From Ciborinia camelliae (lineage: Eukaryota; Ascomycota; Leotiomycetes; Helotiales; Sclerotiniaceae): a stretch of DNA of 64,000 nucleotides. A program made the position numbers and the translations under genes. The notes under the pieces are model-generated. The model had not been told where the DNA came from. It searched no databases and saw nothing but the letters and a program-made list of their open reading frames with translations. This document shows, one piece after another, positions 10,323 through 41,770 of this stretch (position 1 is the stretch's first letter; each line of letters starts with the position of its first letter). The DNA is taken from the NCBI GenBank assembly GCA_025890175.1, contig JANPYM010000010.1, positions 1,642,427-1,706,426 of the forward strand. The letters run 5' to 3'.

Positions 10323-10665
10323 ATCCCACCATCACCTCTCCTCTCCTCTCCTCTCCTCTCCAATCCCAATTCAAGCCAACCCAACCAACATACTCCGCAT
10401 CAACTCCGCACCTCCCGATTCCGAAATCCCCACCTCCCCACCTCCCCACCTCCTCACCTCCTCACCACTCTCACTCCCACCGCACTCCCACTCCCACCGC
10501 ACTCTCACTCCCACCGCACTCTCCACCCTCCACTCCCACTCCCACCCCCAACCCCAACCCCAACAACAAGCAAATGATTCCAACACCGATCGCGCTCCCC
10601 CTCGTTTAAAAACCCGCGTATTCTCTGTTCTCTCAACGCTTCCTGTTGTTGCCTTTCCTTTTGCC

Positions 10666-18600: not shown

Positions 18601-20346
18601 CCACATCCAGTATCAGCAGCATTGAGCCTACAACCTCGCCTGCACAAAGCAGTTCACCAGTCCCGAGCTCAACACCTGCCGTATCTTCGGTTGGTCCATC
18701 TAGTCTAAGCAGTATTGAGGCTACAACCTCAATTGCCCCATCTAGTCTAAGCAGTATTGAGGCTACAACCTCAATTGCCCCATCTAGTCTAAGCAGTATT
18801 GAGGCTACAACCTCAATTGCCTCAACTGGTCTAAGCAGTATCGAATCTACGGCCTCAATTGCTCCATCCAGTTCTATCCCCTCGAGCTCCTCAATTCTCA
18901 GTTCAATTGAGGGAACTTCTTCATCTAGCTCTGTCGGTAGCAGTGTTATATCATCTTCAGCCGAGCCATCTTTGAATCCAAGTAGCACACAAGGCCCAAG
19001 CTCTGTTGTACCAACTAGCTCGACCTTATCATCTGCCGAGCCAAGCAGTATTATACCTCCAGCATCGTCTAGTGCTGCCTCCACTTCAGGGCTTGCTTCC
19101 AGTAGTAGTGAGCCGATCACCCCAGCCTCATCGTCTGCTGTTCCCAGTAGTATTGAGCCTTCAGCCTCATCCAGTGGCGTCAGCACCTCCGAATCTGCTT
19201 CTAGTACTGTTGGACCAACGAGCAGTGTAGCATCTTCAATATCATCCAGCGAAGTTATTAGTTCGTCATTAGCACCATCTTCTAGTGTTGTTGGGCCGTC
19301 CAGCAACCCAATTAGCAGTGTACCATCAAGCTCTCTTGGTGAGACGTCATCGGTCGCTTCATCTGTGACCCCAGGTTCCAGCACTTTATCTAGCAGCATT
19401 CCCCCTAGCAGCTCCTTGGCCTCCACTACTTCCCAACCTCCAACCTCATCTCTTATCCCAGAATCTAGCACCATTTCAAGCAGTGTTTCTCTCACGAGCT
19501 CAACTATTCCCACAACTTCTGAAGCACAAAGTTCATCCAGTGCATCTCCAACAAGTTCCGTGGCTTCCACCACAATTTCTGAAGCTCCAAGTTCATCTTC
19601 GAGCTCTGAACTCCCATCTAGTACACAGCTGTCTTCATCCGCTTCTTCTTCAATTCCACCAATCTCATCGGCACCCCCCTCCTCATTCTCTACCCGTACG
19701 TCGTCATCAAGTTCAAGTTCAAGTACCACATCCACTTGTCCAGCGGCAACAATCACCAATGGTGGTTTTGAATCTGGAGATTTGGCACCATGGGCACCAA
19801 GAAGTGATGGTATCGCGCAGGCCAAGAGCAACGTCATTATCAACAATCCTGACGTGGCTCGAAGCGGTAGCTTTTACCTGTAAGTCTTTGTTCCCTTCCG
19901 TCCTTCATCATACAGCTCTTACGCGTAACTCCCCTTCCATCAACTCAAACTAACTCCTACTTAGCCAAACAACCATGACCCAAGACTTCCTCTCCCTCGT
20001 TCAACAAACCACCGCAATCTGCCCCACCACCAAATCCGTCACGGTAACCGCCTGGGGTCAAGCCCTCAAATCTCATGACTGCTACCTCCAAATCTGCATC
20101 AACAAAGACAGCTACTGTTCTAACCCCACGCCTTTGAAGAAGGGCAAATGGAAGAAGAATAAGCTTGTCTACAAGCCAAGAAAAAATCAAGTAGGCCTGA
20201 CCACCGCAAAGGTCCAGATCTATACCGAGTGCAGAGGTGAAAGCGATGGCGTGGTATTGATCGATGATGTGGTTATTACCAAGACGAAGTTGTCTTCCAG
20301 AGAAATCATACCACAACTTGCGCCCCGAATGGGAACGTTGAGATAG
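15675..20346 (+). CDS. Large secreted Ser/Thr-rich wall protein with WSC domain and C-terminal beta-sandwich-like module
   Basis: Exons are 15675..19879 and 19965..20346 (1,528 aa). The intron has GTAAGT and CTTAG and the phases fit. The start ATG 15675 gives a signal peptide (MAPRSLRDSLFFAATFGVAS) and a likely Kex2-type site after LAPR. Residues about 60-635 are a Ser/Thr/Ala/Pro mucin-like stretch. A WSC domain follows at about residues 640-755 with the expected cysteines (MGCYLD, GHCALFC, GLCYCSDGF, ICNFPCPGD, QSCGG). Another 600-residue Ser-rich stretch leads to CPAATITNGGFESGDLAPW, the usual opening of a carbohydrate-binding CBM4/9- or galactose-binding-like fold, ending VLIDDVVIT. WSC domains bind glycans. 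The protein probably sits extended and heavily O-mannosylated in the cell wall. No GPI signal or TM helix is visible. Internal repeats are listed separately. Confidence 0.9.
17041..17205 (+). repeat. 51-bp coding minisatellite in the mucin region (17-aa unit)
   Basis: Three near-identical copies of a 51-bp unit encode SESASASSTAPIVSSLV. The copies differ by one or two bases. Near-identity suggests recent expansion or homogenisation, so this is probably a length-polymorphic site. Confidence 0.9.
18700..18845 (+). repeat. 42-bp coding minisatellite in the second Ser-rich region (14-aa unit)
   Basis: Three near-identical 42-bp units encode SSLSSIEATTSIAP, followed by a diverged fourth (TGLSSIESTASIAP). 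It is independent of the 51-bp repeat upstream. Confidence 0.9.
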
Positions 20347-21214
20347 ATGCGCGCATGAGATTTTTTAGAGCGCTTTTAGTTTTATTTTATACATTTGCGA
20401 TATGGACTTGTATGTCTATATCGCTAGCGAAGGTGAAGAAAAAGGAGGTAATGAGAGGAGGTGGAGAGATTAGACGCGATTCCTTTTTGGTCTTTGAGGT
20501 TTTTTTTTTCATTTTAGATTTTTAGTCTTATTTTTTTCTTTCTTAGGATGGAGGATGGGGGACGCAACTAGGGATATTGATGGGTATTGGGTATGGGATG
20601 GAAATGGTATGAGGAAGAAATATAATGATGGATTGATGGATCAATGTTTCTTTTATCTTGATGTATTAGTTATGAGGTTGGGTTATATCTATAGGAGTGG
20701 CTTAATTCAAGATGGTATTATCTCTTGATCTTTTGTTTTGCTTATTATGTTGTTGTATTTGTAACACTTTTTAGTTTGAAGAAGAGGGGTATGCCCTACC
20801 CTATTTTTGTCACGCCGCCTTGCTGTTTTTTTTTTGTGTGGGAGAATGATGCGGTTGGTGGGGTTTAGGCGGTGTAGCATCCTGTTACATTTACCTACCT
20901 TACATTGTCAAAATCATCGGGGATAGAGGAGTCATAATTCAATGTCATGAAGTCCATTGCATTGCTCTAATTCAAACATCCTTTCCTCCCGTCGTTATTG
21001 ATTATATATCGCGTCATCATATCATATCATCATATCATTCCTATATCCCAGCGCCTTTCCTTTCTTCCATATCCATATTTTTAACCCCAACTCCAATCCT
21101 TATCCTTTTACATTCAAAGTCATCAATTTATGCCCTCATATCCTATCTCTTTCTTACCCCATGTCTCCAAACGCATGAAATCCATGTCACGCGCTAGTGA
21201 CCGCGACCATTGCC
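20347..21214. other. 3' flank of the WSC gene, no gene seen
   Basis: T- and G/A-rich sequence with short simple repeats (CATCATATCAT near 21015-21035). It separates two convergent genes and presumably holds both 3' UTRs. Confidence 0.5.
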
Positions 21215-22035
21215 TTAAAACGCAGCATCGAATTCTTGGATGGCACCGCTAGCGGCTATGGTATAGTGTTGGGTGACAGATGCTGGATCATTGGTGTAGG
21301 AATGGGTGCGTGATGCGTAGGGGGTAGAGTGGGTGGGGTTGTTGAGATAGGTTTGGATGCGGGTGAGTGAGAGCTGGGATTGTTCGGCGGGGGATGTTTG
21401 GGGAGTGGATGGGGAAGGGGTGCGGTGGTTGGGGCTTGGTTGGGCAGAGGCTTGTTAGTGTTTGTGTCTATGGATCAATTTATGGAGGGGAAGGAGTTGT
21501 GGTGGGAATGGATCGAAGTAACATGTGTGGGCACGATAGGAGGAGATCAATGGGAAGTGGGAAGTGGGAAGTGGAGAGAAAAATGGGAGCGGTGAGATGG
21601 TAGAATAGGGAGGTCGGAGGAGGAGGTAGAGATTTGATGGGTTGATATGAAAGGGAGATAGTTCAATGCAAGAGAAAAAGAAGAAGAGTATGGAAGGTAG
21701 GAGAGTATGTACAAGGAATGATGGGAGGCTACGTGATATATGAAGAAGGTAGTATTGGAAAAAGATAGGAGCAGAGAACAGAAGGGTCGACAGAAAAGAG
21801 CGACGGATTGGTGAAGACAAGAAGTGGTACAACATGAAAGAGGAAGAAGTAAAAGAACAGTGATCCATATAGGAAGAAAGTGGGTAGTGGAGAGAATATG
21901 AACGGGACTGCGAGGTATGGAACAGAACGAGAACAATGTCGCCGGAAAAGACTCAGGAGAAGAAGCATGAAGAGTATGAACTCACTCAGAGCCGGCAGAG
22001 CCTTGTACGGCAACATTGGAACTTTGACTAGCCAT
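21215..22035 (-). CDS. Small paralogous protein, family copy A (89 aa)
   Basis: This is the first of five related small genes. Exons on the minus strand are 22035..21986 (50 nt) and 21434..21215. The intron (551 nt) starts GTGAGT, ends CCAAG and is phase 2. Exon 1 encodes MASQSSNVAVQGSAGS. Exon 2 has a Pro/Ser-rich linker, then AEQSQLSLTRIQTYLNN and a C-terminal helix-like end SGAIQEFDAAF. No signal peptide or TM is seen, so a soluble intracellular protein is likely. A TATA-like box lies about 160 bp upstream. I do not recognise the family. The evidence that it is a gene is the recurrence of exon 1, intron phase, middle motif and C-terminus in the other copies. The acceptor was chosen to satisfy phase; a nearby CAAG is an alternative. 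Confidence 0.6.
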
Positions 22036-22190
22036 GATGATATGGAGCAAGAATTTCGGGGCGAGTTTGGCACGTGTTGCCACACTTTGACTTAAGAATT
22101 TTAAGATTGAGATAGATGGTAATGATAGGTGATTGAGATGAGAAGAATGAATTGAAGAAGAAAAAGATTCATTGCGAAAGAAAGGGATAT

Positions 22191-22200
22191 GTTTATATAG
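22191..22200 (-). promoter_or_regulatory. TATA-like box of copy A
   Basis: On the minus strand this reads CTATATAAAC, about 160 bp upstream of the ATG at 22035. Comparable boxes occur at similar distance in the four other copies. Confidence 0.45.
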
Positions 22201-22754
22201 ATAAAATGTCAATCTTCAATGACTAACTGACTGACCACAAGATTTAAGTGTGCGGATAGAGCCCTCATCCACTTCCCTGTATAGGTATATCGAGTCAAGA
22301 GGCCTAACTTCTTGCAACCTCTACATAATAAGTAAGTCTTCTATAACCACCATCCCTCATCGAACTTCCTGCATATTTTCATAGGTGAATGCATTGCCAG
22401 TGGGCAGTCAAACGACCAACAAAAAGAGGCAATCAACCTCCCAAAGGTTCTGATTGGTGTATTCGTGTTGTACCGCAGCTTAATTAAAATCGGTCCAGAT
22501 TTCAAGGAGATTGGAGAACAGGGCGGCTGCTTTATAGCTTTATAGGAAAAAGCCACTTACACACAAGTATCGAGTAAGGATACGATACAGGGATTATTGA
22601 TTGATGCATCAAGCTTCTTCTCTGTTGTACGGTGGACGCCTCAAAACCTCACAAAGTTTCTAAGTTAAGGATATGCTTATAAGCCACCTTTCTAAGTTAA
22701 GGATACGTCAAGTCTGTCGGTTACACGATTTGATAAAACCACCCCTGTTACTAT

Positions 22755-22769
22755 AAGTGATAAAATGAC
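22755..22769. repeat. Isolated terminus AAGTGATAAAATGAC of the TIR family
   Basis: Identical to the 15-bp ends of the element at 5802-6288, here preceded by TAT. No matching opposite terminus was found nearby, so it is probably a solo fragment. Confidence 0.4.
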
Positions 22770-23401
22770 ACACTATCAAAATCAAAAATCGATCCTCCTC
22801 ATCTCAAAATTACAGGCGCCCTTGGATATGCAACATAAATCCTTTCCCACGGTGCAGAATATACTGATCTGGTCGGTTATATCACTGGACTACAGGGCTT
22901 AATCTGAATTGGCTCGATTTGCTTCTTGATTATAGGGTTTTCTATACCCCGCAAGGCTGTATAGGTCGCCTCCGTACCCGGATATAGAAACTGTTTGGCT
23001 TGAATATTTGTAGTTGCTCATAAGTTGCTCATATTTAATATGATTCTAGTTAAGGCTTTTCTACTGTAATATTCATTCTGACTGTTAAAATTACTATTGT
23101 TTTGCGATTAATCAATAATAACATAGAAAGTTCTGGTTAAGGAACAGTTAGACGGGCAAGGTAGACCGGATGTAGAAAAATACTTTTCTTGAAGGCCTTT
23201 CCACTACTTCCAGTATGTCTAGATTATCAAAATCCAATCGATTCAATTCCTTAGCACTGTGTTAGTACCTAGCTACAAGTTAAAGATTCAAAATAATTAA
23301 TCAGATATACAGCTTTTGTGCTACATTGTTCAACTAAATAAAGCTGGAAGTTGAAGATTACGAATCTTTGGCCCGTCGGTGGACTCGATCGGGAATATCA
23401 C

Positions 23402-23585
23402 ACCGAAATTATTGGTTTGGAAAATGGTTCGCATTTCATTGCCTTACTGACATAGAATTATTGGTTTGGAAAATGGTTTGCAGTTTCGTCGGCTTCTCTT
23501 TCCGTAAATGGGAGACTGACACCGAAATTGTTGGTTTGCAAAATGGTTCGCAAACCAACTCGCAATTCATTGCTTCCCTTTCCTG
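23402..23585. repeat. Three degraded direct repeats (GAAATTATTGGTTTGGAAAA core)
   Basis: Units at about 23402, 23451 and 23520 share (C)GAA(A)TT(A/G)TTGGTTTG(G/C)AAAATGGTT(C/T)GCA, with related tails (TCATTGCCTT / TCATTGCTTC). The 50-70 bp spacing indicates a partly decayed tandem array. Confidence 0.75.
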
Positions 23586-24574
23586 AAAATTAACCCAGAT
23601 TGTTGCGCATCTGCAACCCATTTTTGGCTTAGACCAACCCGCTGCTGAGCTTTACTACCGGCACAGTACTTACAGTTCGACCAGTGCCTATTCCTGAACA
23701 GCTCACTTATTTTACTCAGTTACCTACCTAGTAATTCTTCTCTCAAACCCGCAATTGAACTGTAGGTTGTTTGTCACGTATCTTCTCGCTAATTCCTTCC
23801 CTCCAGCACAGTATGCAATCTTTTACACCACAATTGAAGAAGCACGAGCCACGAAGCAAGCAGGAAGCTCAATGAGGTCATAACTAATGTTAAGTCTTGA
23901 AAGACTGCAAAATAGCGATTTACTGTTGACAACCTTGGTCTTTGGCTGGGTTGGTCATTCTCTCACTATGCCTACCGGTGGAATTCCCGGTTACCGGCAA
24001 GGAGATGGTGATTGAGGTTATTTTGCAAGTTTGCCGTGTTGTAGGGAAGATAAAAGTATTACTATGAGCCGAAGAATCTCATAACTGGCCAATCTTCTAA
24101 ACTGTACCGAGATCGTATTCAGATCGGGCGGTCGGGATTCGGTCCACTTATAGGCCTTTACAGGGTATATACTCTGTATTAGACCTTATAGGGTCTGTTT
24201 CATTAAATTTGAGATCCACACTGGGCTTGACGAGCCTATAGTCTTAGCGAACATAAAGGCTTCAGGCTAAGCCAAGTTTAACCATTTGGGCATTAATTTA
24301 CAGGTTTGGTGAAACCCTGGGTGATTGTAGCCTGCTTACAGTGCCATTAATAGCTACAATAGAGTTTGAAGGAAAGGTAAGGCTGACTCGAAGAACAAAG
24401 ACCGACCAAGTCTCTCAATGAAGGAAACTATACAGCCCTTAGAAAAAATTTAAGTTCTTTTCTTTCCGGCAAATATTCTCCGGAATTAATTTATGTCACT
24501 GGCGGATTCATCTGGTGTATCCGGTGGAAAAGCGACATTGGCTATTTATTCTCAGTTGCAAAATATCGAGAGTA

Positions 24575-24732
24575 CCGTCTAAACTCACATGCAAAAACTT
24601 ACACTAAACCCTTTTTAATCCATAGGTAACTTTGCTAATTCTTCCAATTATATGCTCTGTTTAGCTAAAATGCCCAACCCAGAACTAAATCAGTTAGGTT
24701 TAGTGTGAGTTCTTGCATGTGAGCTTAGACGG
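24575..24732. mobile_element. MITE-like element, 158 bp with about 40-bp terminal inverted repeats and TA flanks
   Basis: Left arm CCGTCTAAACTCACATGC... (from 24575) is mirrored by the right arm ...GCATGTGAGCTTAGACGG (to 24732). Across about 40 bp only three positions differ, all transitions. Both ends are flanked by TA (24573-24574 and 24733-24734), as expected for Tc1/mariner-type insertion. The interior (about 80 bp) is AT-rich and non-coding. Confidence 0.8.
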
Positions 24733-25042
24733 TACTGTGTTTCGCTTTTTTTATACGTCACTAAAAGTGCATCTTGAGCAAGATATTCTCATTAGAAACT
24801 TCGACAACTATGGATGATACCAACTCTCTCGAATATCATTCTGACTCCTATCAATTTACCAAAGAAAGTCTCTTCCCTATTTTCTTCGAACTCGGGCCTG
24901 TTCCCAGCTGAGTCCAGGCTTTCGCCATCTGAATCGTTCCTCTGACCCAAGAACTTGTTTCTTTGCCCTTCTCGTATTCAATCGGACTGAAGCCTCGACA
25001 ACGCCTCTAACATGAAAGATCAACGTAACTTAGTCGTGGCAG

Positions 25043-25528
25043 TTAAGAACCACGGCCATTACCATCGTTACCGTAAAAGGTTGCATGGAACTCTTGCAAC
25101 TTGGTACCCATTCTCGACACTGCAGTGGCAACAGCATCATGTCTAGGAACATGTTGATTGTCGATTGATGTATGAGGAATAGATAGATCTGGGTCTGTGA
25201 CGTAGGAAGAAATGCGGTCGGCGGAGAGGCGAGTAGCTTCGGTGTGGGGGATGCTCGAAGTATGCTCGAGACTAGTGAAAGAGAGTTTGTATTAGAACAA
25301 ATGGTATAGCGGAAGAATGAAAGAGAAATATATTCCGGGCGCAACCAGAAAATTTCCAATGGGTGATTTAAGATAGGAGGATTGACTGAAGTCAAGCGAG
25401 TAAGGAAAGAAAAGCTCATTCAGACTTAACTTGGGAATGAATATGGTGAATGAGCTAAGAATATGAACTAACTCTGAAATGACGGAGCCTTGTAAGGCTC
25501 TAGTAGAACTCTGACTGGTATTTGGCAT
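25043..25528 (-). CDS. Small paralogous protein, family copy B (94 aa)
   Basis: Exons on the minus strand are 25528..25473 (56 nt) and 25271..25043. The intron (201 nt, shortest in the family) has GTTAGT and CTAG, phase 2. Exon 1 gives MPNTSQSSTRALQGSVIS, matching copies D and E in length. Exon 2 carries TEATRLSADRISSYVTD, aligned with copy E (TEARSLSDHRIQHYLSD), then DNQHVPRHDAVATAV and a C-terminal RMGTKLQEFHATFYGNDG. The middle and end motifs are the best evidence that this is an exon. It is hydrophilic without a signal peptide. Function unknown. Its promoter has a TATA-like box about 150 bp upstream. Confidence 0.65.
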
Positions 25529-25674
25529 GCTGACCCTGTAGAATTGGGGTGAGGGTATAGGTATGATTGTATATACTACACGTGATCGCTAGAGACAGAA
25601 GTTGGGAGTATCAAAGAACAATGTGTGAGAAAAACAATTTGAGGAATGACATCCTCTCGTGGATAGAAAATTGG

Positions 25675-25686
25675 TTTATATATATT
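25675..25686 (-). promoter_or_regulatory. TATA-like box of copy B
   Basis: TATATATAAA on the minus strand, about 150 bp upstream of the ATG at 25528. Confidence 0.45.
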
Positions 25687-25699
25687 TCAATTTCAGTTT

Positions 25700-27150
25700 A
25701 TGGGTTCAGTTCTGCCAATATAAGCCAAATCAACGTGTAGATATAAATCATCATTGGCAAGAATACTTGCAATCTTTCATGCAGAAAGTCGGAGGATGCA
25801 GGGCCGGTTCTGGGGTTGCCCCATTCGGCTTGATCTGCATTGATAAATGAATTCATGAACTTTATACGTTTTTGCTTCTTTATATGCTTGATTGACAATC
25901 TCACTAGATTCTGCTGTAAACACACCCTCTCAATGACGAGACTTGACCGATATTTGCTGTGAAATGGGTGTATATAAATGCACCCATTTGCGATGCATGT
26001 ACGGAATTGTAAGATATTCGAAACAACATCTTCAATACTATTAAGAGTATGACTCTAACCATGGTATGTGGGAAGCATAGGGTTGGATTGCTTCGTGGAT
26101 TCTACGATTCCTACAAGCGTAGCCGCACCCGGGCTACGCATGGGCGCTACGCTAAGCTCCGGAAGCGCTCCGCGCTTCAACAGATACAATTATAATTTAA
26201 TTAAATAATTTATAATTCTTCATTGAAGCACTAGTAAAAGTTAAGTATGTATTGAGGTATATGATGTTTTGATCGATTTGATGATGTATAATACAGTTTT
26301 AAGTATAATGATTTCAAAATGCATTTTTGAAAGATTTTTGATGTTGATCTTTGGTGTATTTTTCCTGGTTTGGTAGTACTCGTCTCGAGGCGGACAAACG
26401 ATTAGGGTTCGCTACCTAATCGTAGGACCTACCCTCGTCCAGTAATAGGTGCTTTTAATTGAATCATGTGGCTCGCTTCTAAAATTCTATCGTGAATCTA
26501 GCCACAAGGAAACGCTGTTGAGGCTGGAGAACTCGGTTTTATCAAGCTGACCAATTAGAATAATAGTTTAATTAAAAGCACCTACTACCGGATAAGGGCA
26601 GGTCGGGAGCTGACAGGCCTACGATTACCTAGTACTGTCTACCTTAGTACTAGGAATCTTCATCAGCCACAATTATCCATTCTGTCTGGGGCATAGAACG
26701 CCCGCGCAGAAACTCTACCCCACTTCCGCGTTGGCAGCTGCAGCTTACATGCAGAATCATATAACAAGGGTTACATTAGCTTTCCGCTTTCTACTTGCCT
26801 CGCTAGGAATATCATCATCACATAATTGTTACATGACATACACGTAGTCGAGCATTTTTGGAGTTGTTTGTTCAGGATAGGTAATCTATTACCAAATTTT
26901 AAGCGAGAATTTAAAGGAGAAAGCTTCGGGGTGTTTCTAAAACGAATTTCTCCTCCAAAGCAAACTACCCCGCACTTCAACCCCGGATCCCTGCAAAAGA
27001 AGGAAAAATCATTTCACAACATCACCAAGTGTGCCTATATTTACATTATGTGACTCACCATCCGAGCTTCTGACTTACACGATCCCAGCGAGAAATCTAA
27101 GAGCCAATTCTTTAGTCCGCATTTGAAGTATTGTTACCACCACCTTTGTT
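25700..27150. other. Spacer between copies B and C with palindromic and inverted-repeat DNA
   Basis: No gene seen. A GC-rich island at 26112-26180 (GCGTAGCCGCACCCGGGCTACGC plus CGGAAGCGCTCCGCGCTTC) is made of small palindromes in otherwise AT-rich DNA. An inverted-repeat element follows at 26411-26632. Confidence 0.5.
26411..26632. mobile_element. Degraded inverted-repeat element (about 220 bp)
   Basis: TAATCGTAGG (26417-26426) and its reverse complement CCTACGATTA (26618-26627) bound the element. An inner pair, TAATAGGTGCTTTTAATT (26443-26460) and AATTAAAAGCACCTACTA (26570-26587), matches with one change. Arms are about 45 bp with partly diverged sequence between the two blocks. The interior has no coding potential. 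A second-order MITE-like element unrelated to the one at 24.57 kb. Confidence 0.65.
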
Positions 27151-27950
27151 CTAACCATCATTACTACCAAAGACCTCATCTAACTCCTTCAAAATAGTAT
27201 GCATTCTGTATCCGGCGATCGCGACTCTATTGAGCTGTTTATGGATATCAAGGGGTCCCGCAACCAAAATTGATTGCGGGAGCGTCACGTGTGGTTGCGC
27301 AGGGCGGATATCACCCTTCGTTCGCCCGCAAATTCCAATCGTATATCCTACCGCAACCGAACATTTTTGTACTATGATATCCATCGCATATTTGTATTTT
27401 AGTACTAGCGATATCCATATAAAAAAAGGTTCGTAAGTTTGTAGGTTTTGTAGGTTCGGTAGAGTAGGTTCGTACGATTCTATGATTCGTATGATTCGTA
27501 TGATTCGTAGATTCGTATGATTCGTAGATTCGTATGATTCGTAGATTCGTATGATTCGTAGATTCGTATGATTCGTAGATTCGTATGATTCGTAGATTCG
27601 TATGATTCGTAGATTCGTATGATTCGTAGATTCGTATCGGATATGATTCGTAGATTCGTAAATTTTTATCAACCAAAAAGTAGAATAAAAGGCAACACAT
27701 AAGAAAAGAACTAGTACAATGCAACAAGGTTCAGGTAGACCGGCAAAAAGGAAGTAACACCATATAACCAACTAAATAAGCTTAACTTAGGATGGCAAAG
27801 GAGTATCAATGAGGATGGAAGGTGAGGGGAGAGTTGATCTTTTACAAAGCCCAAGGAAAGAAACAAGAAATGGAAGGAAAGAACTTTAAGGTTCACCCAC
27901 CCAGAGATAGCAGGGTTTTCTACGGCGACATTGGAAGTTTGGCTTGCCAT
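27151..27950 (-). CDS. Small paralogous protein, family copy C (about 72 aa, altered)
   Basis: Exon 1 (27950 down to about 27897) encodes MASQTSNVAVENPAISGW and is clearly homologous to copy A. The C-terminus, HKQLNRVAIAGYRMHTILKE followed by LDEVFGSNDG, matches the end of copies B and E. The family's phase-2 donor (GG|GTGGGT at 27900) has no phase-matching acceptor that keeps the middle region; the model with GTGAAC donor (27896) and acceptor GAAG (27316), both phase 0, gives 72 aa but lacks the LSxxRIxxYL motif. A 17-bp minisatellite lies in the intron. The copy may be expressed in altered form or be decaying. Confidence 0.4.
27481..27660. repeat. 17-bp minisatellite (GATTCGTATGATTCGTA) inside copy C
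   Basis: About nine copies of a 17-bp unit that itself is two imperfect 8-9 bp halves (GATTCGTA / TGATTCGTA). It falls between exon 1 and the putative exon 2 of copy C and opens a long artefactual minus-strand frame (ESTNHTNLRIIRIY...). Confidence 0.9.
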
Positions 27951-28091
27951 AACATCAGAGAAGGTTGATTGCAATATAGGATAGTATATATAAGCACGTG
28001 GTAATTTAATGATTCCCTCTTGATTTCGAAAAATAATTGAGATAGAGAAAGACACTACTTCAATCTAAACATCACTTTGAACTTAGGCTTC

Positions 28092-28101
28092 ATTTATATA
28101 G
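28092..28101 (-). promoter_or_regulatory. TATA-like box of copy C
   Basis: CTATATAAAT on the minus strand, about 145 bp upstream of the ATG at 27950. A second TATATA lies at 27986-27992. Confidence 0.4.
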
Positions 28102-31100
28102 GCGTTTCAAGCAAGGCAAGTTTACTTGGACTTTATATGGTATGGAATAGGTACTCTGAGATGGTGCTCTTCAAATGTTACTCAAACTCTATCTGACTAA
28201 GCAGTTATTGATAAGAATAAGTAGTCATTGATAAGAATTAAGTGATAGTTATTGATAAGAATATGTAGTAGTTACTCTATGCACGTCAGACGGCACTTAA
28301 GAACCATGTTTGCACGTTTTTCATGGAATGCATGGCAAGTTGCACCGTTCAAACAGACATGGATACAGATATCAGCCAAGTTCATTATTGTGGGGTAGCT
28401 AACCCATTTCTTACTTTTGCCCGTTTTGATTGATTAACGACAGTAGCCAAATTTATGAAGTTAATGGGTGACTCGAAGACTCTTTCTACTCCATATTTGT
28501 GTAATCTTCAATTTGAACGATGTTGTCAACCTATCAACCGTGGAAGAAAGTTCTATTGGCGCTCTGGTGTCATATGAACTATAATCTCAACATATCAGCT
28601 GTGGAAGAGAGTTTCATTGACTGGTATAATATGGGCGGATATTTCTCGGCAACCCTGTTCAGAATCCTCTCTTTCTCCATCCTTACCGTAGGATATCTAG
28701 ATACAGTATCACTCTTACGAATCTAACCTGCCGTACTCTCTTTTTCTGTTTCACATGATGGCTTGAATGCTTGCCTACATATCCAGCCTCATCGGTATAG
28801 CGGATGAAAGAGCAAAATGTTACAAATCAAGCACTGCGGCCTCAATTCGAGCAACTGACTAGAGCTATTTCACTTGCGAATTATTGTTTTTGGTGTGACC
28901 CCACCATTGATTTTGCCAAATGAAGCATGGACCAGCTATTCCACAGGTGGGCCAGATGCAAATTCATCTCAATTCCTGGAGTTTAGACATTGTGGGTGAA
29001 AACGGGACCAGGTAGTCACTTCTCAATTGAGTTGGGGTGAAATCTTGGAATATTCAGCCTCATCTACAGTTTCCGGCCCTGTCATATTAATCTCCATCAT
29101 TTCTGAGTATCTCCATATTCAACATGCGTTTATGGCTCGAAATATGTGCTGAAGTCCAAAGAAGCTTACTCCAGGACACCCAAGCACATTTCATTAGACC
29201 TGATCCGGTGTCCTGGTGGATCAAATGAGTGGGATAACCCTTTTCTAGCAATTCTTACCATATCTACCTGATGCCGGCTACTTTTTGGAGCTATTTGTTC
29301 TTATGCTAGCATCCCTTTTAGTTGATATACTACTATATTTGGAAGGTTTTCTGAATTTGCTGAAGAAGACAGCTCACTTCTGACATTTGTGATGGGGTTT
29401 GCAGCCCGACCTTCGCATCTCATGAACAAGGCACTTCGCGTGACATTACCAGCAATCAACTTCGCTTTGGGGAAGAAAGATGTCACACCGATTTTTAATT
29501 AATTAAGAAATTGGTCTATATAGGAGAAATCCGTATTTACAGGGAATATACAGGTTACTGATGGTGAGAGTCCGTGGCGGTGTATGCACATCAGTCAGCC
29601 TTAAAAAGATAAGACGTATAAACTGATGTTGCATTCAGATCTGGGAAGAATATAAACCTGTTGTTCAGTGAATAAATCATAATTGTGCTACATTAACTCG
29701 ATAATACCCTCGATAATAGAATTTTAAGGTTTTTAGAATTGAAGAGAGGCCCTGGTTTGCCAAGGAAGAGGACGACGTGCATTCCGAGACACGTGTGGAA
29801 TACTTTAGACTGTGCAATGAATGAAAAGAGCCCTTGCTCAAAAGTAGCGAAATATATGTTCCACGGAAATGTGCACGCATGATGCGTGTGAACCAAAGTT
29901 TATCATTATGGTTTGTTCATTATACGATAGCAAAACATAATCTGCTACGTGCCACAATACAAATTCGCGAGTGCTGGTCTTTCAATCTTCACCGGGCACC
30001 CTTGAACCTCCATGCGTCAGTCCCGTTTAATTAGAACGCTCTAATATTGTCGATTGCCATAAACCTGGTCTCCAGGATTAACAAAAGTCTGGTGATGGCA
30101 CAATTGAATGGCTGTGAGCTCGCAGTTTGATGTGAAATTATTTTATTTGGTTACTTTCAAAGAATGACAGCCGCTGTACCACTAGAGCTTGTACAACTTG
30201 CTCATATCAATCCACTGGAAGTGACCAACTTGGCTTTTAGCAGCAAACCTTTTTTAACCAATTAGTTTAGGCGGATTGCAATTCACAGAATATACCAAGG
30301 TACATGAGCCAACTCATTTCATTCACAATCTCACGAATTTATAATGAGAGGAGTTTGGAGATACTGGGACATATTTAGTTCTGGTTTGTCCTTGCCATTT
30401 TTTTGATATTGGCTCTGAACTATGATTGGAGGTTCAGCGACTGAGTCTAAGACGAAAGATATCCGGTAATGCCTAGGCTCTCACTTTGGTGCCAATGCTC
30501 TGAGAATGATCAAATCGTGGAAGTTGATGGGGAAATAATGACGGGATATTTCTTTGATCATATATAGTGTTAAAGTTATGGATCACGTATGAAATGAATA
30601 GTGCAAGTGGGGTATAGTATTAGAGTATATAGATTAACTAAAGAAAAGAACTAAGAATCATCGATTCTACCATTGAATAGTTTATATGCTTGAGGTGATG
30701 CTGCTGGTCCATATTAGGCCCAAGGCCGTAATGGTCCTCCGGACCATACTAAGGCTCATACGACACCTTGCTACATTCAACATATAGTACAAGATTAAGA
30801 AACAGTATTTTATGATTGTCCAGGTGTCTTTTATTAAACCGGAGGATACAATTCCTACCATTTCCTTCTGTGACCTTATCAGCCGCCGATGTAACATCAA
30901 CCATCGGAACACGGACTTCAGCAGTAGCCGCTGAAGCAAAAAAGAGGTAATACCGAACAACATCATCTCTCATTAATCACTTGAGAAAAAAATCTATCCA
31001 CCATAACACCAAATTCATTCCCAACACAGAGGAATGAAGCCACTGGCGCCAAGGCTCGTAGACCCTTCGGAAGGTGTTTTCAGGCCATCGGAACCAATAA

Positions 31101-31674
31101 ATTCTTCAAACACCTTGAACATCTTTCGATGGATACAACTTCAAGCTTGTTGTCTGGGACGCCATCCATGAATAAATCGCAAATTGAGAAGAACATAAAA
31201 CACTGAACTCGATTTGCAAGAAAAAAGGCAAATAATCGCAGCGCGAAAAAGTTTCAGGCCAAAAGATCGACAGTCTAGCGTGGGGGGAAGCACACCGAGG
31301 AAATCAGAACGAAACTCACAAATCTATGATTGTATCGGGATGCGGAGACGCAAAGGCGACGAGAAGGTTTCAGAGAAATGGCACAACGTAAGAGGTAAAC
31401 TCGTTTCACTTCAAAGCTTTAAGTTCTTGGATTGCATGCTAACTTCTTTTTGCTCAAAGAATCGACTGCTTCCCCGGATTCAAAAAAAAAGAACTTGAGC
31501 ACATCTACAAGTCCTTGACCTTTATTCAACATGGATCGTTCCATTCCATCACCAAGCCTATACTCCAAACCCCGCCTTCCCCATTATCACATTCGCCTAT
31601 CAATATACCCGACGTCAACCTCCCATAAGTATCGAAAGACCAAAACAACAGGTTTCTGAGAGGCCATGGCCATT
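28102..31674. other. Gene-poor spacer between copies C and D
   Basis: No confident gene. TTATTGATAAGAAT(A) is repeated three times at 28206-28262. CCTATCAACCGTGGAAGAAAG at 28531 and ATATCAGCTGTGGAAGAGAG at 28591 are diverged direct repeats. A minus frame starting at 30973 (MRDDVVRYYLFFASAATAEV) has a plausible opening but quickly loses protein character. The hairpin island at 30.7 kb is listed separately. Confidence 0.5.
30704..30785. repeat. Palindromic island, related to the one at 46.0 kb
   Basis: ATGGTCC-TCC-GGACCAT forms a perfect short hairpin inside a longer palindrome. The 3' part (AAGGCTCATACG...CTTGCTACATTCAACA) resembles the island at 46.0 kb (ACGGCTCATACG...CTGGCTACTCTCAACA). Confidence 0.5.
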
Positions 31675-32469
31675 TCATGCGCCACCAACAGCACTACCAT
31701 CCCCGAAGAATGCGGCATCAAACTCCTTCAAATGCTTTGCAGCAGCTTCCTTGCGAAGATCTGTGTACTTTCCGGCAGATGAGCTGTCCGGATTGATGGA
31801 AGGCGAGACATAAGGGACGGGGTGGTCCAGATTGGTGAGGAAAGTGCAGAGAATTGAGGGTTCGGTATTGGGCGTGGATGTGTCGGTGTGAGAGGGGGAG
31901 ATATTATGCGAAGTGGTATTGTTATTTGTACTAATTGGAGGCATACAATGTTACACAATGATAATCAGTGAGACAATGATAATCGGTGCGGGTGAGAAAG
32001 GACTGAAAAGATGAAATGGTAGTAAGAGAGTATCTGGAGACATGGGGCTCGGCGCACGAAATGCCGCCGGAGAGTTAATATTCGAAGAAAGACTCGAAAA
32101 AATAAAAGCCTTGTGAAAGATAGGATGTATGGAAGAAAAGACATCAAAGTGACTAGATTGGTGTCTGAATAAAAGATTTCGATGAGATTTCGAGGCCACG
32201 AAAAAATGAAAGGAGTTGAGCTGATAGATAATAGAGCAAAGCGGCTAAGCAATCAATAGAACAGCTTGGAACACAGTCAAGCGATTGAGAATGAAGAGGA
32301 TTTGTATGCGTGGAAGGTTGAGAGCACCGATAACTCAAGAAATTGTGAAGTGTGATTCCGGGAATCATAAAGGCAATTGAGGGGTACGAAGAAATGAAAT
32401 CATAAAGACTGACCCAGCCAACACGGAGCCTTGCACTGCCACATTGGAACATTGGCTCATTTCAGACAT
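31675..32469 (-). CDS. Small paralogous protein, family copy D (103 aa)
   Basis: Exons on the minus strand are 32469..32414 (56 nt) and 31930..31675. The intron (483 nt) has GTCAGT and AATTAG, phase 2. Exon 1 encodes MSEMSQCSNVAVQGSVLA. Exon 2 starts TNNNTTSHNISPSHTDTSTP (Ser/Thr/Asn-rich), then a segment with SILCTFLTNLDHPVPYVSP that the other copies lack, and ends KEAAAKHLKEFDAAFFGDG. The (K/Q)EFxAxF end links it to copies A and B, but the middle is diverged. It is the longest copy. Function unknown. Confidence 0.6.
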
Positions 32470-32607
32470 GGCGTTTTTGTGTGTAGGAGTTCTTGATAGA
32501 GTACTTCAAGTAAAATATCGAGGGCCGAAGACGAGGAGAGAAAATCGAGTTTGGAGAAGAGGGTTGAGGATCTGGAACATAATGCTATAGAAAGGAAGAA
32601 GCTAGGT

Positions 32608-32617
32608 ATTTATATAC
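32608..32617 (-). promoter_or_regulatory. TATA-like box of copy D
   Basis: GTATATAAAT on the minus strand, about 143 bp upstream of the ATG at 32469. Confidence 0.45.
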
Positions 32618-32619
32618 AG

Positions 32620-35600
32620 AGTGGAAAAGAAGGCAAATTATGAACAACGCAAACCATCATTCTATGCGATGGGAGGTTATGCTGTAAAATTGAACAGTTG
32701 AGAAACAGAAAGACGTCCAAGGAATATAGAAAGTGTATAAATCACACTCATGTTACATTTTACAGTTACACTAACCATGCACGACATCACATCGTCGCCT
32801 CTGTCCGCAAGGCTTGGCAAGTAGAAGTGGGGCAGTAGGACAGCAAGTATGTTCGAGGTTTGCAACCAATGAGATACCGCAGTCCGAGTCCTGGTATGAA
32901 ACGTTCTGGCACGCTGACACATTGTAGAAATGATATTAGTTGTCGGCGGGGTGTTAACCATTTTAGTCCATGAAGCCGTACCGTTTTTGGTGGGAGGTTG
33001 TCGATTTGACGTTGTCATATATGGTGGCTCCTCACCCTTGGATCATGTCGGCTTGATTACCGAAATGCTCGCGGCATTGGAAGATTGATTGGTGGGAGTC
33101 TTTGGAGGCTTGCAGCTTTTGGTCTCATGCGGAGAAGGCCGAGAGTAGAGCCTGCATATTATCACGATATCATTGGGCTCCTTGCTCAAAGTTCATCGAT
33201 ATTTTCTTGTCCAAAACTTCTCGGAATAGATGATTATAGATCTCTACTTCTTCCACCATTTATCTGAACTATCAGCATTCTCATCAAATTCCAGAACCTC
33301 GAAGACTATCATCACAGTTTTTTTTTGCATGAAGTATAGGTTATCTGCGTATCTGTATTGGAGCGTTGTTGCGCTCTTCTCGACCGCAGTATTCATATTT
33401 TTTGATCCCTCTTATACCACACAGAAATCTTGAATCAGATGGTCTAGGTACCTAGAATTACTTCTTTTTTTCATTTCTATTCCGAATATACTATGTTAAC
33501 CTTAAGGTGATTGCTTGCTACCTAGTCTAGAGCGATCTTTCACCGGTGACCCTGAACGATTATAGGACAAACAAAGATCGACTACAAGGTATAAATCTTG
33601 GGCGCTGCTCACATTTCAAATGAAGGGGTGGGCAGTCGGGACCCATTTAACCGATTTAATCTAATCTTCAACCCCTGAACAAGTCAATTAATTATATGAT
33701 GTAATAGTCCTAATTAAGAATTTCGATCAAGAATATTTCCTGAAAAGGAATAACACCGTTTACCAATTTCAATCCTGGTAGATAATGAAACGAATCTGTC
33801 GCCTCAACCCGATAAAAGAGGGGGAAGGCTTCAGGGGAGGGGGTTTTTCAATGCACTTTGCTGTCCATCCGCTAAGCCTTGACCGTGGTGATGTGGTTGG
33901 TTGTGGACCACTTGATCCACTCCCGTTGAACTTCAAAAACCACACAGGCCATGGGTCCGATTCTCTCCTTCTGGCTGAATACTTTGCTTATGCACTAACG
34001 TATATGATCGCATCATATACCACGTTTTAATTCGCTGCACGATGTCTAACACTTATTAGATTAAATCCCCATGCAGCCCTAAATGCCCTGAAGATGAGTT
34101 CCGACTATGTTCTGAAAGACAAAAATATTGAATATTGTAAAATTCTGTAACAAGAAATACAGATCAATCACATCTGTCTCCTATATCCAGTAAGATTCTT
34201 GGACTTCCTGGGCGATAATTAGCTTGTATATATATGAGTAGACTTTACTGGGCGAGGCTATATTACAGCACTGTTGGAGCATTCTGTCGCCGGGATAAAA
34301 GGTTTCTATGCGAGATAGAACTTCACCATCGGTTTCTCGGTCAAATCCGGTTCTGTGGTCTGAATTTCCGGATAATCTCTATGCTTGCGCGAAAGAGGTG
34401 GTCGTATCCGAGGTTGTCTATTAGTTCCCGTGTCAGCGATATACCTAGATTTAACTTGATCACTAACCTAACTACCTACCAAATCTGGAGATAAAGTCAC
34501 CAAGCCACAAGTTCTGCCATGTCATACAACCTCTTTTGTGGCTGTGCGCACTCTTTTTTTTCGAAAACTCCCTGAAGCTATGGAAGATGCCGCCACTCCC
34601 TCTTGTTGGTATTGCAAGTTCACTATTTGCGTGTGTATGGCATATCCCACCGGCTATTGTCTTATCATTCATGCCCGAGATTGTTATTCCGAAGTATCTG
34701 CCTGGTGTTGTCAAGAACGCATGGAACGGTGAAGTGATGAAGATACTATCTATCTAGAAGGCATCATGTCTTTCACCGCCCGTTCCACCTGCCTTTCTGC
34801 CACCACGTGACAACCAAAACAAAGTTTTCACCGTCTAACACAACGACAATGACAATCTAACTTGGTCGTGATCTTTCCTTACCCTCGAAGTTTGTTGACA
34901 GCACAAATTTAATTCAAAGCTCTTCTTATCTCTAGCTATATTAGAAAGATGGAGTTTTCAGAGAGATCCCATCAAACCTGGAGTCGGGTTAACCTACATG
35001 CTAAAATATAAACATCGCGCCTTGCCATTGGTGTATCCGTCCTCAACGGAGCTTAATACAAAATATGAAGTTCTTCCGAGTCGACTATAGTCTGAGCTAG
35101 TTTCAGGGGTTCACGGTCAGTGTCGTCAAGTTACCGCTCTACAGCTTCAGCCCTACGGTCATAACTCCACCAACCGAGCTTTGACCTACACAAATTTAGG
35201 TTATACGAGCTTCAGGAACGCATGGCTTGTGGGTTGTACATGTCCTTAGATCAGACCTTATGCTGTGGTTCTGTACTACTAGTAGCTATGTCTTAGCGAC
35301 GCTTATTTTTCTCCTTCATTACCAGCAAGGAAAATACTTCCGACTCCTCCGGCAGTCAATGCCAGTCATTGGATCTTGTACAAGAGACAAAATAAACCAT
35401 ACAGCCAACCTTACTTTTCCAGCCCACAGCCCTACATATCTGCCACCAACTGCAAATGTCACCGGATCGACTGATCTCTTCATCATCAGTGTTGTGCGAC
35501 CGGCAGACTACCCGTCGAGATTACCCGGATTCTACCCCTGGATTATCACCAGGGGATATTCTGGCCAATCGGGTATTTCTCCAACGAAATCTAAAACAGT

Positions 35601-36322
35601 CGAACGGGTGCGACTACCAATGAATTTTCCGAGCATATGCTAGTTTTACCAGATTTCACCCCCGGATTATCACCCGTATAAAATCTGGCAGATCAGATAT
35701 TCCTCCGGCGAGGTTTGAAGTGACCGGATGGCTATGTTTGCCAAAGGCTATTCAGCATTCTATCGCTTTCATAATATTTACGAAATCGCTCAAGTTCGTC
35801 TGGGTCTGAAAGCCACCTCAAATCGCTCAAGTCCATACATATTGGCCAGTTTTCCGAAATAATTTAACTTTTCACATGGCTTCAGTGCTCCGCAAGTCGA
35901 TTCCTGAGAGGAATATTTCGCGTTTCTGGAAATATATTCTGGCCGGCCATTATAGCACCTCGTCTCATTCATCGAAACACTTTTGGTAAATCAAGTGATT
36001 ACCAACATGGTGAAACATACGTAATTCTGGACAGTATGCTTGCAAAACCAGCTTTTGAATCTTTGCATGCATCTCTATTTTGGCTTTTTGATAGTGACGG
36101 GAAGGTTTTGTGCTTCAAATTTCTTATAGTTTTAGAAATATTGACAAGATCATTCTACAATAAACCAGAGGTATTGTCATTTTAGAATCAAGTTTTCCAT
36201 TCTCATCAAATTATCAGATCGTTCATATAGTTCATATCGTTCCAATCCACAAACCTGAAATGTTTATGTGCTGCTGCGATAGATACTCGTCTAGACATTC
36301 AATGGTTATGTTGAATGCCTCC
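32620..36322. other. Gene-poor spacer between copies D and E
   Basis: No confident gene in 3.7 kb. Open frames are short and lack ATG context or domain features. One diverged direct duplication is listed at 35.5 kb. Confidence 0.5.
35518..35738. repeat. Diverged direct duplication, unit about 95 bp
   Basis: TTACCCGGATTCTACCCCTG... (35520) and TTACCAGATTTCACCCCCGG... (35646) continue in parallel through GGATTATCACC, ATATTC...ATT(T/C)CTCC and GACCGGATGG/GAACGGGTGC. Differences are largely transitions. Confidence 0.6.
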
Positions 36323-37030
36323 CTATCCATCAAATGTTGAATTGAACTGCTGCAACTTGGCGCTCATTCTGTGCCCTGCAGCCGAGACTTTGTTGGTATG
36401 ATCTCCAGCATGGTGATTGTTCGATGTACATGGGATAGGACAATTATCGTCAGAAAGGTAGTGTTGGATGCGGTGGTCTGAGAGACTTCTTGCTTCGGTT
36501 GAGGAGGTAGTGTATGAGGGATGGTGTGAAATTTTGTTTGTGCTGAATCTATGTTAAAGGAAGATAACGTGAGTGCGTGAAAGCTTTTAAGGACTTAAGG
36601 CCGAGTAGGGAGAGAGGGGGCAAGGCCAAAGAAAAAAGTGCGACCTCAAATAAAGATGAACACAAGAGAGACGAAAGAATGAAAAGACCAATGAAGGAAT
36701 ACAATATGCTATAATGGAGATGGATTATCTGATGGAAGTGACTGGCCTCATAAGACAGAGTGGGTAGCTGCGAAGAAGGAAAGAGAGAACGTGGCCAGAA
36801 CACTGGTCCAAGGTAGTCATGCCCTGCAAGACGAATGAACTCTTGAGGTATAGTAGGCCAAACAGTAAAGGAGAAAGGGAATATCAAGGAACGACTTCGT
36901 ATGTCGAAGCTTTGATCTTATAACCCAGTGATATAATCGAGTGCAGAAAGTAAGAAGGGGGAGTTGAAACTAACTCGGAAGTAACAGAGCCTCGCACCGC
37001 GATGTTAGAGCTCTTGCTGGTGTTCGACAT
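36323..37030 (-). CDS. Small paralogous protein, family copy E (93 aa)
   Basis: Exons on the minus strand are 37030..36975 (56 nt) and 36548..36323. The intron (426 nt) has GTTAGT and ACATAG, phase 2. Exon 1 encodes MSNTSKSSNIAVRGSVTS. Exon 2 contains TEARSLSDHRIQHYLSD and then NKVSAAGHRMSAKLQQFNST before FDG and the TAG stop. It is closest to copy B. The three-part match (exon 1, middle motif, C-terminal helix) makes this one of the two best-supported members. There is no signal peptide, TM segment or known domain. Confidence 0.65.
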
Positions 37031-37164
37031 GATGGCTTGGAGGAGTGAAGGTGGCCAAACTTGTCGGACGTAATCGGTGAGAATTGGCTTGCAATTACAG
37101 TAAAAGTTATGAGAGACCTTGTCGAAAGTTGTTTTGATTGAGAAAACAGCTCGAGGAATTGGAT

Positions 37165-37175
37165 TATCTATATAT
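37165..37175 (-). promoter_or_regulatory. TATA-like box of copy E
   Basis: ATATATAGAT on the minus strand, about 138 bp upstream of the ATG at 37030. Confidence 0.4.
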
Positions 37176-37179
37176 GCAA

Positions 37180-38674
37180 GTGCAAGAAACTCATGCAAGT
37201 CCCTTTTGGGCATCTATGGAGAGCAGTATCGCCTATCAAACATATCTTTTGGCGTTGTCCCCCGCCTGTTCTAGCATTTGGAAGATGATTTTCAAATTAG
37301 ATCAATAATTGCTGGCAGTGACAACTCAAATTCTCAAGCTGCCTGACAAGAATGAACACAGCTCGATGTCCCGCAGAATAAGCAAGGATCAAAATACCTC
37401 CTAAGATTGAATAAGTTTGAGTGTCAAGCCAAATGCATGGATTAAAGTAACGCAGCCCCCAACTTACATCTTGCATGTAACTACTAGAGGCGTACTGCAT
37501 AATAAGCATGGATTAAGAATGCGATGATTCGTAGCTCTTATAGAAGAAGCGAACAACAGAGCGACTTCTGTGCAACCCTGCACAAAAGTGCCAATTGATG
37601 TCTTGGCTGCAACGAAATATACTGGGCACATCAGAAATCTCTTTTGTTAATTGGAATCCTTCATACTCGTACATGCAGCCCGTTATTCATAATTAACAGG
37701 GGCCACCGGTAAAGATCTACACGTTCTATGGACGACCGTGGGATCTGCATCTGGGCTTATGGTGTGCTACCAGGTTGAAACGACTATCAAAATCTTGATA
37801 TTTAAGCAGCGTGACATAGCGCTCTTGTTTCGGCTACGCCGTGCGACCGGGGGATGCGCAGCTGGACTTGCGTTGCTAACTAAGGTTCGTTGAAGATTAA
37901 TGTTTTGCCACCAAAATCTTGATCTCGTCCAATATTATTCTGATTCTTTAAGTAGCGTAGCAATATTGTTGCTATTTTGGCAGTCGATACTGATTTGGCA
38001 CCGTCCGCTTTATCCTAATTGTGGCTTGCGTGGTAGTTCCCGGAGAATACTGCATGAAATCAATCCGGCATCTTGCGTTGATCTTCCTTCATGAGCGCCG
38101 AATTTATAATGCCTCGGGTTTCATCCGTAGTTGGATATTTCATGTAAACTGGGTATCATAATTACAGCAAGTCTTGGGTCAATAATTACGATTTGTCTAA
38201 TTCACTTTCATGTACTCAGACCATTTAGCTAATCACTACTACTTTTTTGTTTTATCCCATGTGAAAGCCGGAAATAACTAGCTGGCTGGGCACCGAATAG
38301 AAACCCCGGCAATTTTCAATTCCTATGTGTACGGTTAGTGGATTCAATACTTTACTTTACTTCGAACCAAAGTGCCGGTAGCTACACGTCATATCCATAC
38401 GGGGTAACATTAGCGTCTATCGGCCCGTGACGTGGCTGGGGTGTAGCAGGGAATATGGAAACGCTTAAGTGATGTAACATTGGAGGAGAGAAAAATGTTG
38501 GATATCACTCGAGTCACAGTTGGTTGTGGATCATTCGTTGCGTAAGCCAGTTCTAACACATATAAGGAGCTTCACCATCGAGAATCAGTCTTTTCAAAAC
38601 AGCGCTGAATTTCCATACCTCGAATTCGATACATATCTGCACATATCAAATTATCTTTCATCTAAGTTCGCAAT
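37180..38674. other. Intergenic, upstream of the alpha/beta hydrolase
   Basis: Nothing gene-like. A TATATAAGG box near 38560 and an A/T leader suit the promoter of the gene starting at 38675. Confidence 0.5.
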
Positions 38675-39526
38675 ATGACTACTTCTTCTCGTCCAACTCT
38701 TGTATTCTTTGCGGGAGCATTCGCCGATCCCTCATGCTTCGATCGTGTTGTGCTTTTGTTTGAGAAAGCAGGCTATCCGACTATCTACGCCCGCATCCCT
38801 TCCTTGAACCCAGACCCATCGGAACTGGCCTCAATATCTTCTACAAACGATGTCTCTACGGCTCGCAAGAACGTTCTGTTGCCCCTCATTGAGGAGCAGC
38901 ACAAAGACGTGATCGTTATTACTCACTCTTACGGAGGGGTTGTTGGAGGCGCTGCTGCTGCTGGTTTGAGCAAATCTGAGCGTAGTTCTCGCAATGAAGC
39001 TGGTGGTATCTTGGGCCTGGTATACTGGGTTGGAAATATTGTTTCTGAAGGTGAAAGCTTGTTTCAGGCTGTAGGTGGCGCATACCCCCCTTTCATCAAG
39101 GCAGGAAATGTGAGTTCGGTCCCAAATCTAATGTTAGACCTCATTGTGATGCTAATGGAAACTTTTCGTTTAATTTAGCCATCTCCAGGTCTTGCCGTTA
39201 TTGAGCCAGTGATGTCGACCCTCTATGCCGCTTCTGATGTTTCTTCGGCATCAGCTCTCGAAGCTGCTATGATTCCCCATGCTCTAGCAGCATTCGAAAC
39301 CCCGGCTCCTGCTCCTGCCTGGGCGGAGACAGCGTTTGATGGACGTCGGGTTTACATTCGTACTTTGGACGATCAATGTAACCCATTGTTTTTACAAGAT
39401 ATCTGGATTGAGAAGAGCAAAGTATCGTGGGATATTGCTGATCTTAAGACATCCCATTGTCCTTTCATCAGCTGTCCCGAGGAACTTGTTTTGAAAACCC
39501 TTACGTTCATCGAGAACTGGGTTTGA
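38675..39526 (+). CDS. Alpha/beta hydrolase (AB hydrolase-1 type, EstC-like)
   Basis: Exons are 38675..39109 and 39179..39526 (260 aa). The intron has GTGAGT, a CTAAT branch and TTTAG, phase 0. The core fold opens with PTLVFFAGAFADPSCFD (oxyanion region). The nucleophile elbow is HSYGG (variant of GxSxG, with VIVITHSYGGVVGG), the acid is probably Asp in RTLDDQCNP and the base His in KTSHCPF. No signal peptide, so a cytosolic esterase/hydrolase of small substrates is likely. Length is typical for this fungal subfamily. Substrate cannot be named; methyl-ester or lactone hydrolysis is common for relatives. It stands alone with no biosynthetic neighbours. Confidence 0.88.

Positions 39527-41458: not shown

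Positions 41459-41770
<312 letters not shown>

Follow-up and report, generated by a model that had tools for sequence, protein, structure and literature searches.

A cluster of small two-exon genes in Ciborinia camelliae belongs to an orphan gene family that is probably restricted to the Sclerotiniaceae

Hydrophilins and LEA-like proteins are small, hydrophilic and disordered, and the same is predicted for the products of a cluster of related small genes that we describe here in Ciborinia camelliae, the cause of a flower blight of camellia; unlike hydrophilins and LEA-like proteins, most members of this family are low in glycine, and none has a Pfam match. The cluster lies in a stretch of 64,000 nucleotides on contig C2 of the C. 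camelliae genome (46.2 Mb, 27 contigs), at C2:1642427-1706426, hereafter the window, and positions below are window positions unless a contig is named. A family of necrosis-inducing small secreted proteins likewise has small members and is expanded in the same fungi (C. camelliae, Botrytis cinerea and Sclerotinia sclerotiorum; PMC7060139), but it was drawn from secretomes, whereas the proteins of the cluster have no evident signal peptide. The putative a-factor pheromone genes of Leotiomycetes (PMC10569646) likewise encode fewer than ~100 amino acids (aa), contain an intron and are often unannotated; they differ in the C-terminal CAAX/CPAX box, which by the criterion described there occurs in none of 26 cluster-family proteins, and an a-factor pheromone was ruled out on this ground. 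The closest relatives are deposited Sclerotiniaceae hypothetical proteins (NHQ30_008181, Bfra_003045/003046, BGAL_0416g00010/00070, EAF04_001545/001557/001559, OCU04_007528/007545, sscle_12g090670 and others), which belong to the same family along the whole protein.

The original prediction placed five genes on the minus strand, with start codons at 22035, 25528, 27950, 32469 and 37030 (g1 to g5 in this order). On re-check these positions and the N-terminal peptides were exact, as was the phase-2 GT donor in four genes, which follows 50 nt of coding sequence in g1 and 56 nt in g2, g4 and g5. Four of the five genes look intact (g1, g2, g4 and g5), while the copy at 27950 (g3) is a probable relic and a sixth gene lies outside the window. 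The models of the intact-looking copies, in which the acceptor sites are inferred choices, are as follows.

21986..22035, minus strand: g1 exon 1 (group A), 50 nt, donor GTGAGT, phase 2; N-terminus 11/13 identical to a non-Ciborinia member
21435..21985, minus strand: g1 intron, predicted, 551 nt, 73.7% pyrimidine, AAG acceptor, CTAAC branch-like site ~20 nt upstream
21215..21434, minus strand: g1 exon 2 with stop; protein of 89 aa; profile E 6e-23
25473..25528, minus strand: g2 exon 1 (group B), 56 nt; after splicing, the product equals the deposited NHQ30_008181
25272..25472, minus strand: g2 intron, 201 nt; junctions consistent with the deposited protein
25043..25271, minus strand: g2 exon 2 with stop; protein of 94 aa; profile E 1.8e-17
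32414..32469, minus strand: g4 exon 1, 56 nt, donor GTCAGT; 8/13 N-terminal identities; profile E 0.0069
31931..32413, minus strand: g4 intron, predicted, 483 nt
31675..31930, minus strand: g4 exon 2 with stop; divergent protein of 103 aa; profile E 1.2e-8
36975..37030, minus strand: g5 exon 1 (group C), 56 nt; profile E 2.5e-6
36549..36974, minus strand: g5 intron, predicted, 426 nt
36323..36548, minus strand: g5 exon 2 with stop; protein of 93 aa; profile E 1.2e-17

The shared layout consists of a short exon 1 (consensus approximately M-S-x-x-S-x-S-N-x-A-V-x-G-S-x-x-S-D), a long phase-2 intron and an exon 2 whose product combines a linker rich in Ser/Thr with an LSxxRIxxY segment and, at the C-terminus, a (K/Q)LQxFDAxF motif. 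As claimed before, (T/A)E-xxx-LS-xx-RI-xx-Y is present in three copies and (K/Q)(E/Q)(F/L)xxxF forms the C-terminal end of all five. All five introns in the window are phase 2 (551, 201, 674, 483 and 426 nt in g1 to g5), and the models of g1, g2, g4 and g5 reproduce the range of 201-551 nt given earlier. These introns are indeed long, given median intron lengths of 78 nt in S. sclerotiorum and of 62 and 74 nt in two B. cinerea genomes (PMC3158057); the intron of GPI1 in the window, near 53110-53160, is ~50 nt long as judged from flanking Pfam positions. In g1, g2, g4, g5 and the sixth gene the intron is 65-74% pyrimidine, compared with a median of ~50% for regional stretches.

The observation of related small genes is real and exceeds chance, as two comparisons with other species confirm. 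A profile built from 21 non-Ciborinia proteins was used to search the 3,815 open stretches present in 94 kb of contig, with reversed peptides as a control. It recovered exon 2 of g1, g5, g2 and g4 at the E values listed above, the best reversed peptide reaching E 3.8; by exon 2, these four genes and the sixth gene all match the members from other species significantly. Exon 1 is short and its profile scores are weak (E 2.5e-6 for g5, 0.0069 for g4, 0.012 for g2 and 0.051 for g1). When the N-termini of all 3,809 ATGs in the 94 kb were compared with those of non-Ciborinia members, just six had at least 8/13 identities, and these were the five loci and the sixth gene; the next best were eight ATGs at 6/13. 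The deposited 'hypothetical protein' NHQ30_008181 is letter-for-letter the predicted spliced product of g2 (25528-25043), and thus one gene model agrees with the deposited annotation. The family and its gene models are very probably sound.

The sixth copy was located by own-genome searches with g5 and with P0005 (P0001 being NHQ30_008181). Its exon-1 match lies on the plus strand at C2:1712372, window coordinate 69946, 5.9 kb past the right end, and the non-Ciborinia profile matches its exon 2 at E 8e-9 and its exon 1 at E 8.7e-6. A third own-genome query gave a single weak match on contig C25 (E 0.49). An own-genome search with an exon-1 pattern matched g1 and g5 only, which makes this pattern too strict for counting copies.

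The gene at 27950 has a different appearance, and the features in and around it are the following.

27901..27950, minus strand: g3 exon 1, probable relic, weak donor GTGGGT; 9/13 N-terminal identities; not listed by the profile
27151..27226, minus strand: g3 remnant of the C-terminus, with a stop codon after 24 full codons; the protein lacks its central part; profile E 2.3
27240..27419, minus strand: element of ~180 bp inside the g3 intron, with 10-bp inverted ends (TATGGATATC) read from the sequence
27469..27637, no strand assigned: 17-bp tandem array, 9.9 copies, inside the g3 intron

The exon-1 peptide of g3 (MASQTSNVAVEN) shares its 9/13 identities with a foreign member, and a C-terminal piece, KELDEVF, follows downstream. 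A spliced model (27950-27901 / 27226-27151) would give 41 aa across an intron of 674 nt, with the LSxxRIxxY segment and the linker missing; at E <= 10 the profile of non-Ciborinia proteins lists the C-terminal piece but not exon 1. Since the central segments are missing, the profile match is weak and the intron holds a repeat array and an element, we read g3 as probably a decayed copy of the family. An 80% partial copy of the element is found on contig C12 and begins exactly at the 27240 end.

Three protein searches, the last of which used 22 aligned members, returned 22 distinct homologues at E <= 10: 14 from Botrytis/Botryotinia, four from Sclerotinia, three from Stromatinia and one from Ciborinia, with genus names as given by the sources. 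Lineage was looked up for two species only, and C. camelliae is placed in the Sclerotiniaceae, Helotiales; the remaining listed genera (Botrytis, Botryotinia, Sclerotinia and Stromatinia) we take to be Sclerotiniaceae. By genus name, all 22 homologues thus come from this family, in line with the lineage restriction proposed originally. Monilinia also belongs to the Sclerotiniaceae, and none of the 22 homologues from these annotated-protein searches is from that genus. The searches rely on shared 5-residue words and on annotated proteins, and distant or unannotated relatives could therefore escape them. The single Ciborinia match is g2, the only one of the six copies listed as a Ciborinia protein, although the queries included g1, g4, g5 and, in the last search, the sixth gene; these four therefore seem to be unannotated at comparable length. 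That annotation has largely missed the copies is explained by a first exon of 50-56 nt preceding a long intron.

The statement that no named family covers these genes also stands. Pfam gave no family at E <= 1 for the five window proteins and, for the 22 members, none above the curated cut-off (best E 0.03, each family in just one member), while the PDB held no solved-structure relative at E <= 10. Literature searches brought up no publication that we recognised as dealing with the family, and no paper in them matched SNVAVQGS or sscle_12g090670 as an exact string. The family is thus undescribed in the sense of having no name or function, but not in the sense of being unseen, as members, g2 itself included, are already deposited as hypothetical proteins. 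Taking the gene models and the restriction together, we consider an orphan Sclerotiniaceae family the likely reading.

The copies are local duplicates by position, as first proposed, but not recent ones. A tree of 26 proteins resolves group A (support 97/98), uniting g1 with Botrytis, Sclerotinia and Stromatinia members; group B (95/90), uniting g2 with Bfra_003046; group C (95/90), uniting g5 with Botrytis and Stromatinia; and group D (97/92), in which Sclerotinia and Stromatinia members join the sixth gene. Since groups A to D each span genera, the duplications look old, and a recent local expansion is ruled out. Only g4, on a long branch (1.63), has no orthologue in the tree. The copies diverged before Botrytis, Sclerotinia/Stromatinia and Ciborinia split, and one Ciborinia copy has probably decayed since. 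Judging from locus tags, gene numbers on shared contigs appear to fit one order, A, B, C, D, as in Ciborinia: EAF04_001559 (A), 001557 (C) and 001545 (D); OCU04_007545 (A) and 007528 (D); Bfra_003045 (A) and 003046 (B); BGAL_0416g00010 (A) and 00070 (C).

Across Botrytis, Ciborinia and Sclerotinia/Stromatinia, the identity of orthologues is 53-62% (eight pairs, groups A-C), whereas proteins of B. cinerea and S. sclerotiorum are on average 83% identical (PMC3158057). In group D, identity is 39% between the sixth gene and its relative from S. sclerotiorum; Stromatinia and Sclerotinia pairs reach 84% (A) and 69% (D). Of six regions, exon 1 shows the highest conservation, with 73% identity between orthologues and 56% between groups; apart from the tail, conservation is lowest in the linker (47% and 25%) and in a variable stretch (45% and 8%). 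We computed the proportions of nonsynonymous (pN) and synonymous (pS) differences between copies within Ciborinia only. In exon 1, pN is 0.23 and pS 0.70 (five genes, 172 codon pairs; 0.25 and 0.68 with g3 added), and differences at codon positions 1, 2 and 3 number 73, 53 and 137. As pN lies well below pS, selection works on the protein: exon 1 is under protein-level constraint, and for exon 2 such constraint is suggested.

The proteins contain 21-33% Ser/Thr, 0-2 Cys and no Trp, with a grand average of hydropathy (GRAVY) of -0.36 to -0.89. Hydrophilins are defined by Gly > 6% and a hydrophilicity index > 1, and Gly exceeds 6% in 7 of the 26 proteins. Judged by reading, the first 20 residues are polar, with no hydrophobic N-terminal run of the kind expected of a signal peptide. 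Two AlphaFold2 models, made with 16 members, are of low confidence (mean predicted local distance difference test score (pLDDT) 57.5 and 55.8; predicted template modelling score (pTM) 0.28 and 0.24). In both, roughly the first 30 residues are predicted to be disordered, LSxxRIxxY to form a helix (residues 36-44 and 32-48) and the C-terminal part a longer one (residues 62-84 and 67-93), with block means up to 80. The description of the C-terminal end as amphipathic fared poorly: the helical moment of the last 18 residues exceeded the shuffle mean in 25/26 proteins, with P < 0.05 in 3/26.

Upstream of the start codons, each gene in the window has a TATA box (TATAWA) at -144 to -164.

22194..22199, minus strand: TATA box of g1, 164 bp upstream of the ATG
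25679..25684, minus strand: TATA box of g2, 156 bp upstream of the ATG
28095..28100, minus strand: TATA box of g3, 150 bp upstream of the ATG
32611..32616, minus strand: TATA box of g4, 147 bp upstream of the ATG
37169..37174, minus strand: TATA box of g5, 144 bp upstream of the ATG

CACGTG is found at -41 in g1, -56 in g2 and -50 in g3 (~22076, 25584 and 28000) and in none of the three other genes. A k-mer scan of the 800-bp upstream regions gave three 8-mers in at least four of the six genes where 0.55 were expected, a small excess.

Around the genes, 24571-24736 is an inverted-repeat element resembling a miniature inverted-repeat transposable element (its 40-nt arms are 93% complementary, and it has matches at other places on C2 and on nine further contigs), and 26426-26604 is a second inverted-repeat element (38-nt arms; matches on C25, C21, C22 and C12). 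The left neighbour of the cluster is a 1,407-aa open frame with a WSC domain (15660-19883, plus strand), which contains three long-period tandem repeat arrays (42, 51 and 96 bp). RRP6-like exosome nuclease pieces (PMC2NT, 3'-5' exonuclease and HRDC; 46536-49298, minus strand) and GPI1 (51967-53660, plus strand) are possible synteny anchors. Long near-perfect short-period arrays lie at 10144-11035, 41514-41751 and 59085-59245 (e.g. CCTCCTTCC x40.7 and ACCATTCC x23.6). A structured RNA in 20000-39000 was ruled out, with no Rfam match at gathering scores. Right of the window, the open-frame translation of L011 4308-5981 has a run of X, that is, masked or unknown bases.

Given the constraint on exon 1, the recurrent terminal F-xxx-F and the free linker, the product may be a soluble, mostly disordered intracellular protein that acts via short conserved segments, with the N-terminal (exon-1) peptide and the C-terminal helix docking onto a partner. 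Each gene would have its own TATA promoter and be expressed conditionally, and the role would probably be in the fungus's own growth, development or stress, not in secretion. We hold this intracellular role with more doubt than confidence, but prefer it over an exported effector and over a protectant of resting cells. Several points weigh against our interpretation. The docking role has conservation as its whole basis, and even the helices are tentative because pLDDT and pTM are low. The g1 model depends on an AAG acceptor; the g4 donor (GTCAGT) is weak, and g4 has no orthologue among the deposited proteins. For the two exon-2 blocks, pN and pS lie closer together (pN 0.47 in both, pS 0.71 and 0.84, with synonymous divergence saturated), and the join of the sixth gene to group D was flagged as long branches meeting. 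The closest TATA of the sixth gene is at -234, and the promoter controls, in which none of 2,000 control sets of random 400-bp stretches equalled the TATA arrangement of the five window genes and none of 2,000 the three aligned CACGTG, are overstated because the motifs were chosen after being seen.

Among the rival explanations, host-facing effectors, exported without a classical signal peptide and diverging as tandem copies in an arms race, would fit small, tandem genes that evolve faster than the average protein (PMC3158057) in plant pathogens and a cluster whose surroundings hold repeat elements but few genes. We consider this unlikely, since there is no hydrophobic N-terminal run, Cys residues are few, exon 1 is under protein-level constraint and orthologues are retained across very different host ranges. 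No likelier are hydrophilin-/LEA-like protectants or conidiation-type small proteins that build up in resting cells (spores, sclerotia): the proteins are small, hydrophilic and largely disordered and their genes have TATA promoters, but few are rich in glycine and no LEA or conidiation family was found in Pfam at E <= 10. For such a role one can also point to sscle_12g090670 (group D), which is five gene numbers from the hydrophobin SsHP1 (sscle_12g090620), required for sclerotia in S. sclerotiorum (PMC12655489), although proximity in gene number is weak evidence. A search of the C. camelliae genome for class I hydrophobins (PF01185) gave no match, as did its 14 controls, and is hence uninformative. 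It is a more doubtful proposition again that a new interaction module, the exon-1 peptide, had a single origin in the Sclerotiniaceae ancestor, and that the cluster is a lineage-specific regulator set for family-defining traits such as sclerotium or apothecium formation, in conserved order near the SsHP1 region. Finally, that the open frames are due to chance or belong to a non-coding transcript, and that the peptides are never made, is hardly credible, for although the first exons are short and annotation lists only g2 of six, it is opposed by the exon-level profile matches, the codon-position pattern of exon 1, 22 homologues from other genomes with about the same length and the lack of an Rfam match in the region.

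The cluster thus consists of genes of a real but ordinary kind, ordinary since it is common for genes to be confined to a single fungal family. For the re-annotation of Sclerotiniaceae pathogens a ready profile is now at hand. The family also offers a clean case of its kind, being old, tandem, syntenic by gene numbers, constrained at the protein level in exon 1, devoid of known domains and for the most part unannotated. As the cluster is small, it could be removed whole, which would allow the role of a family-specific gene set to be probed.

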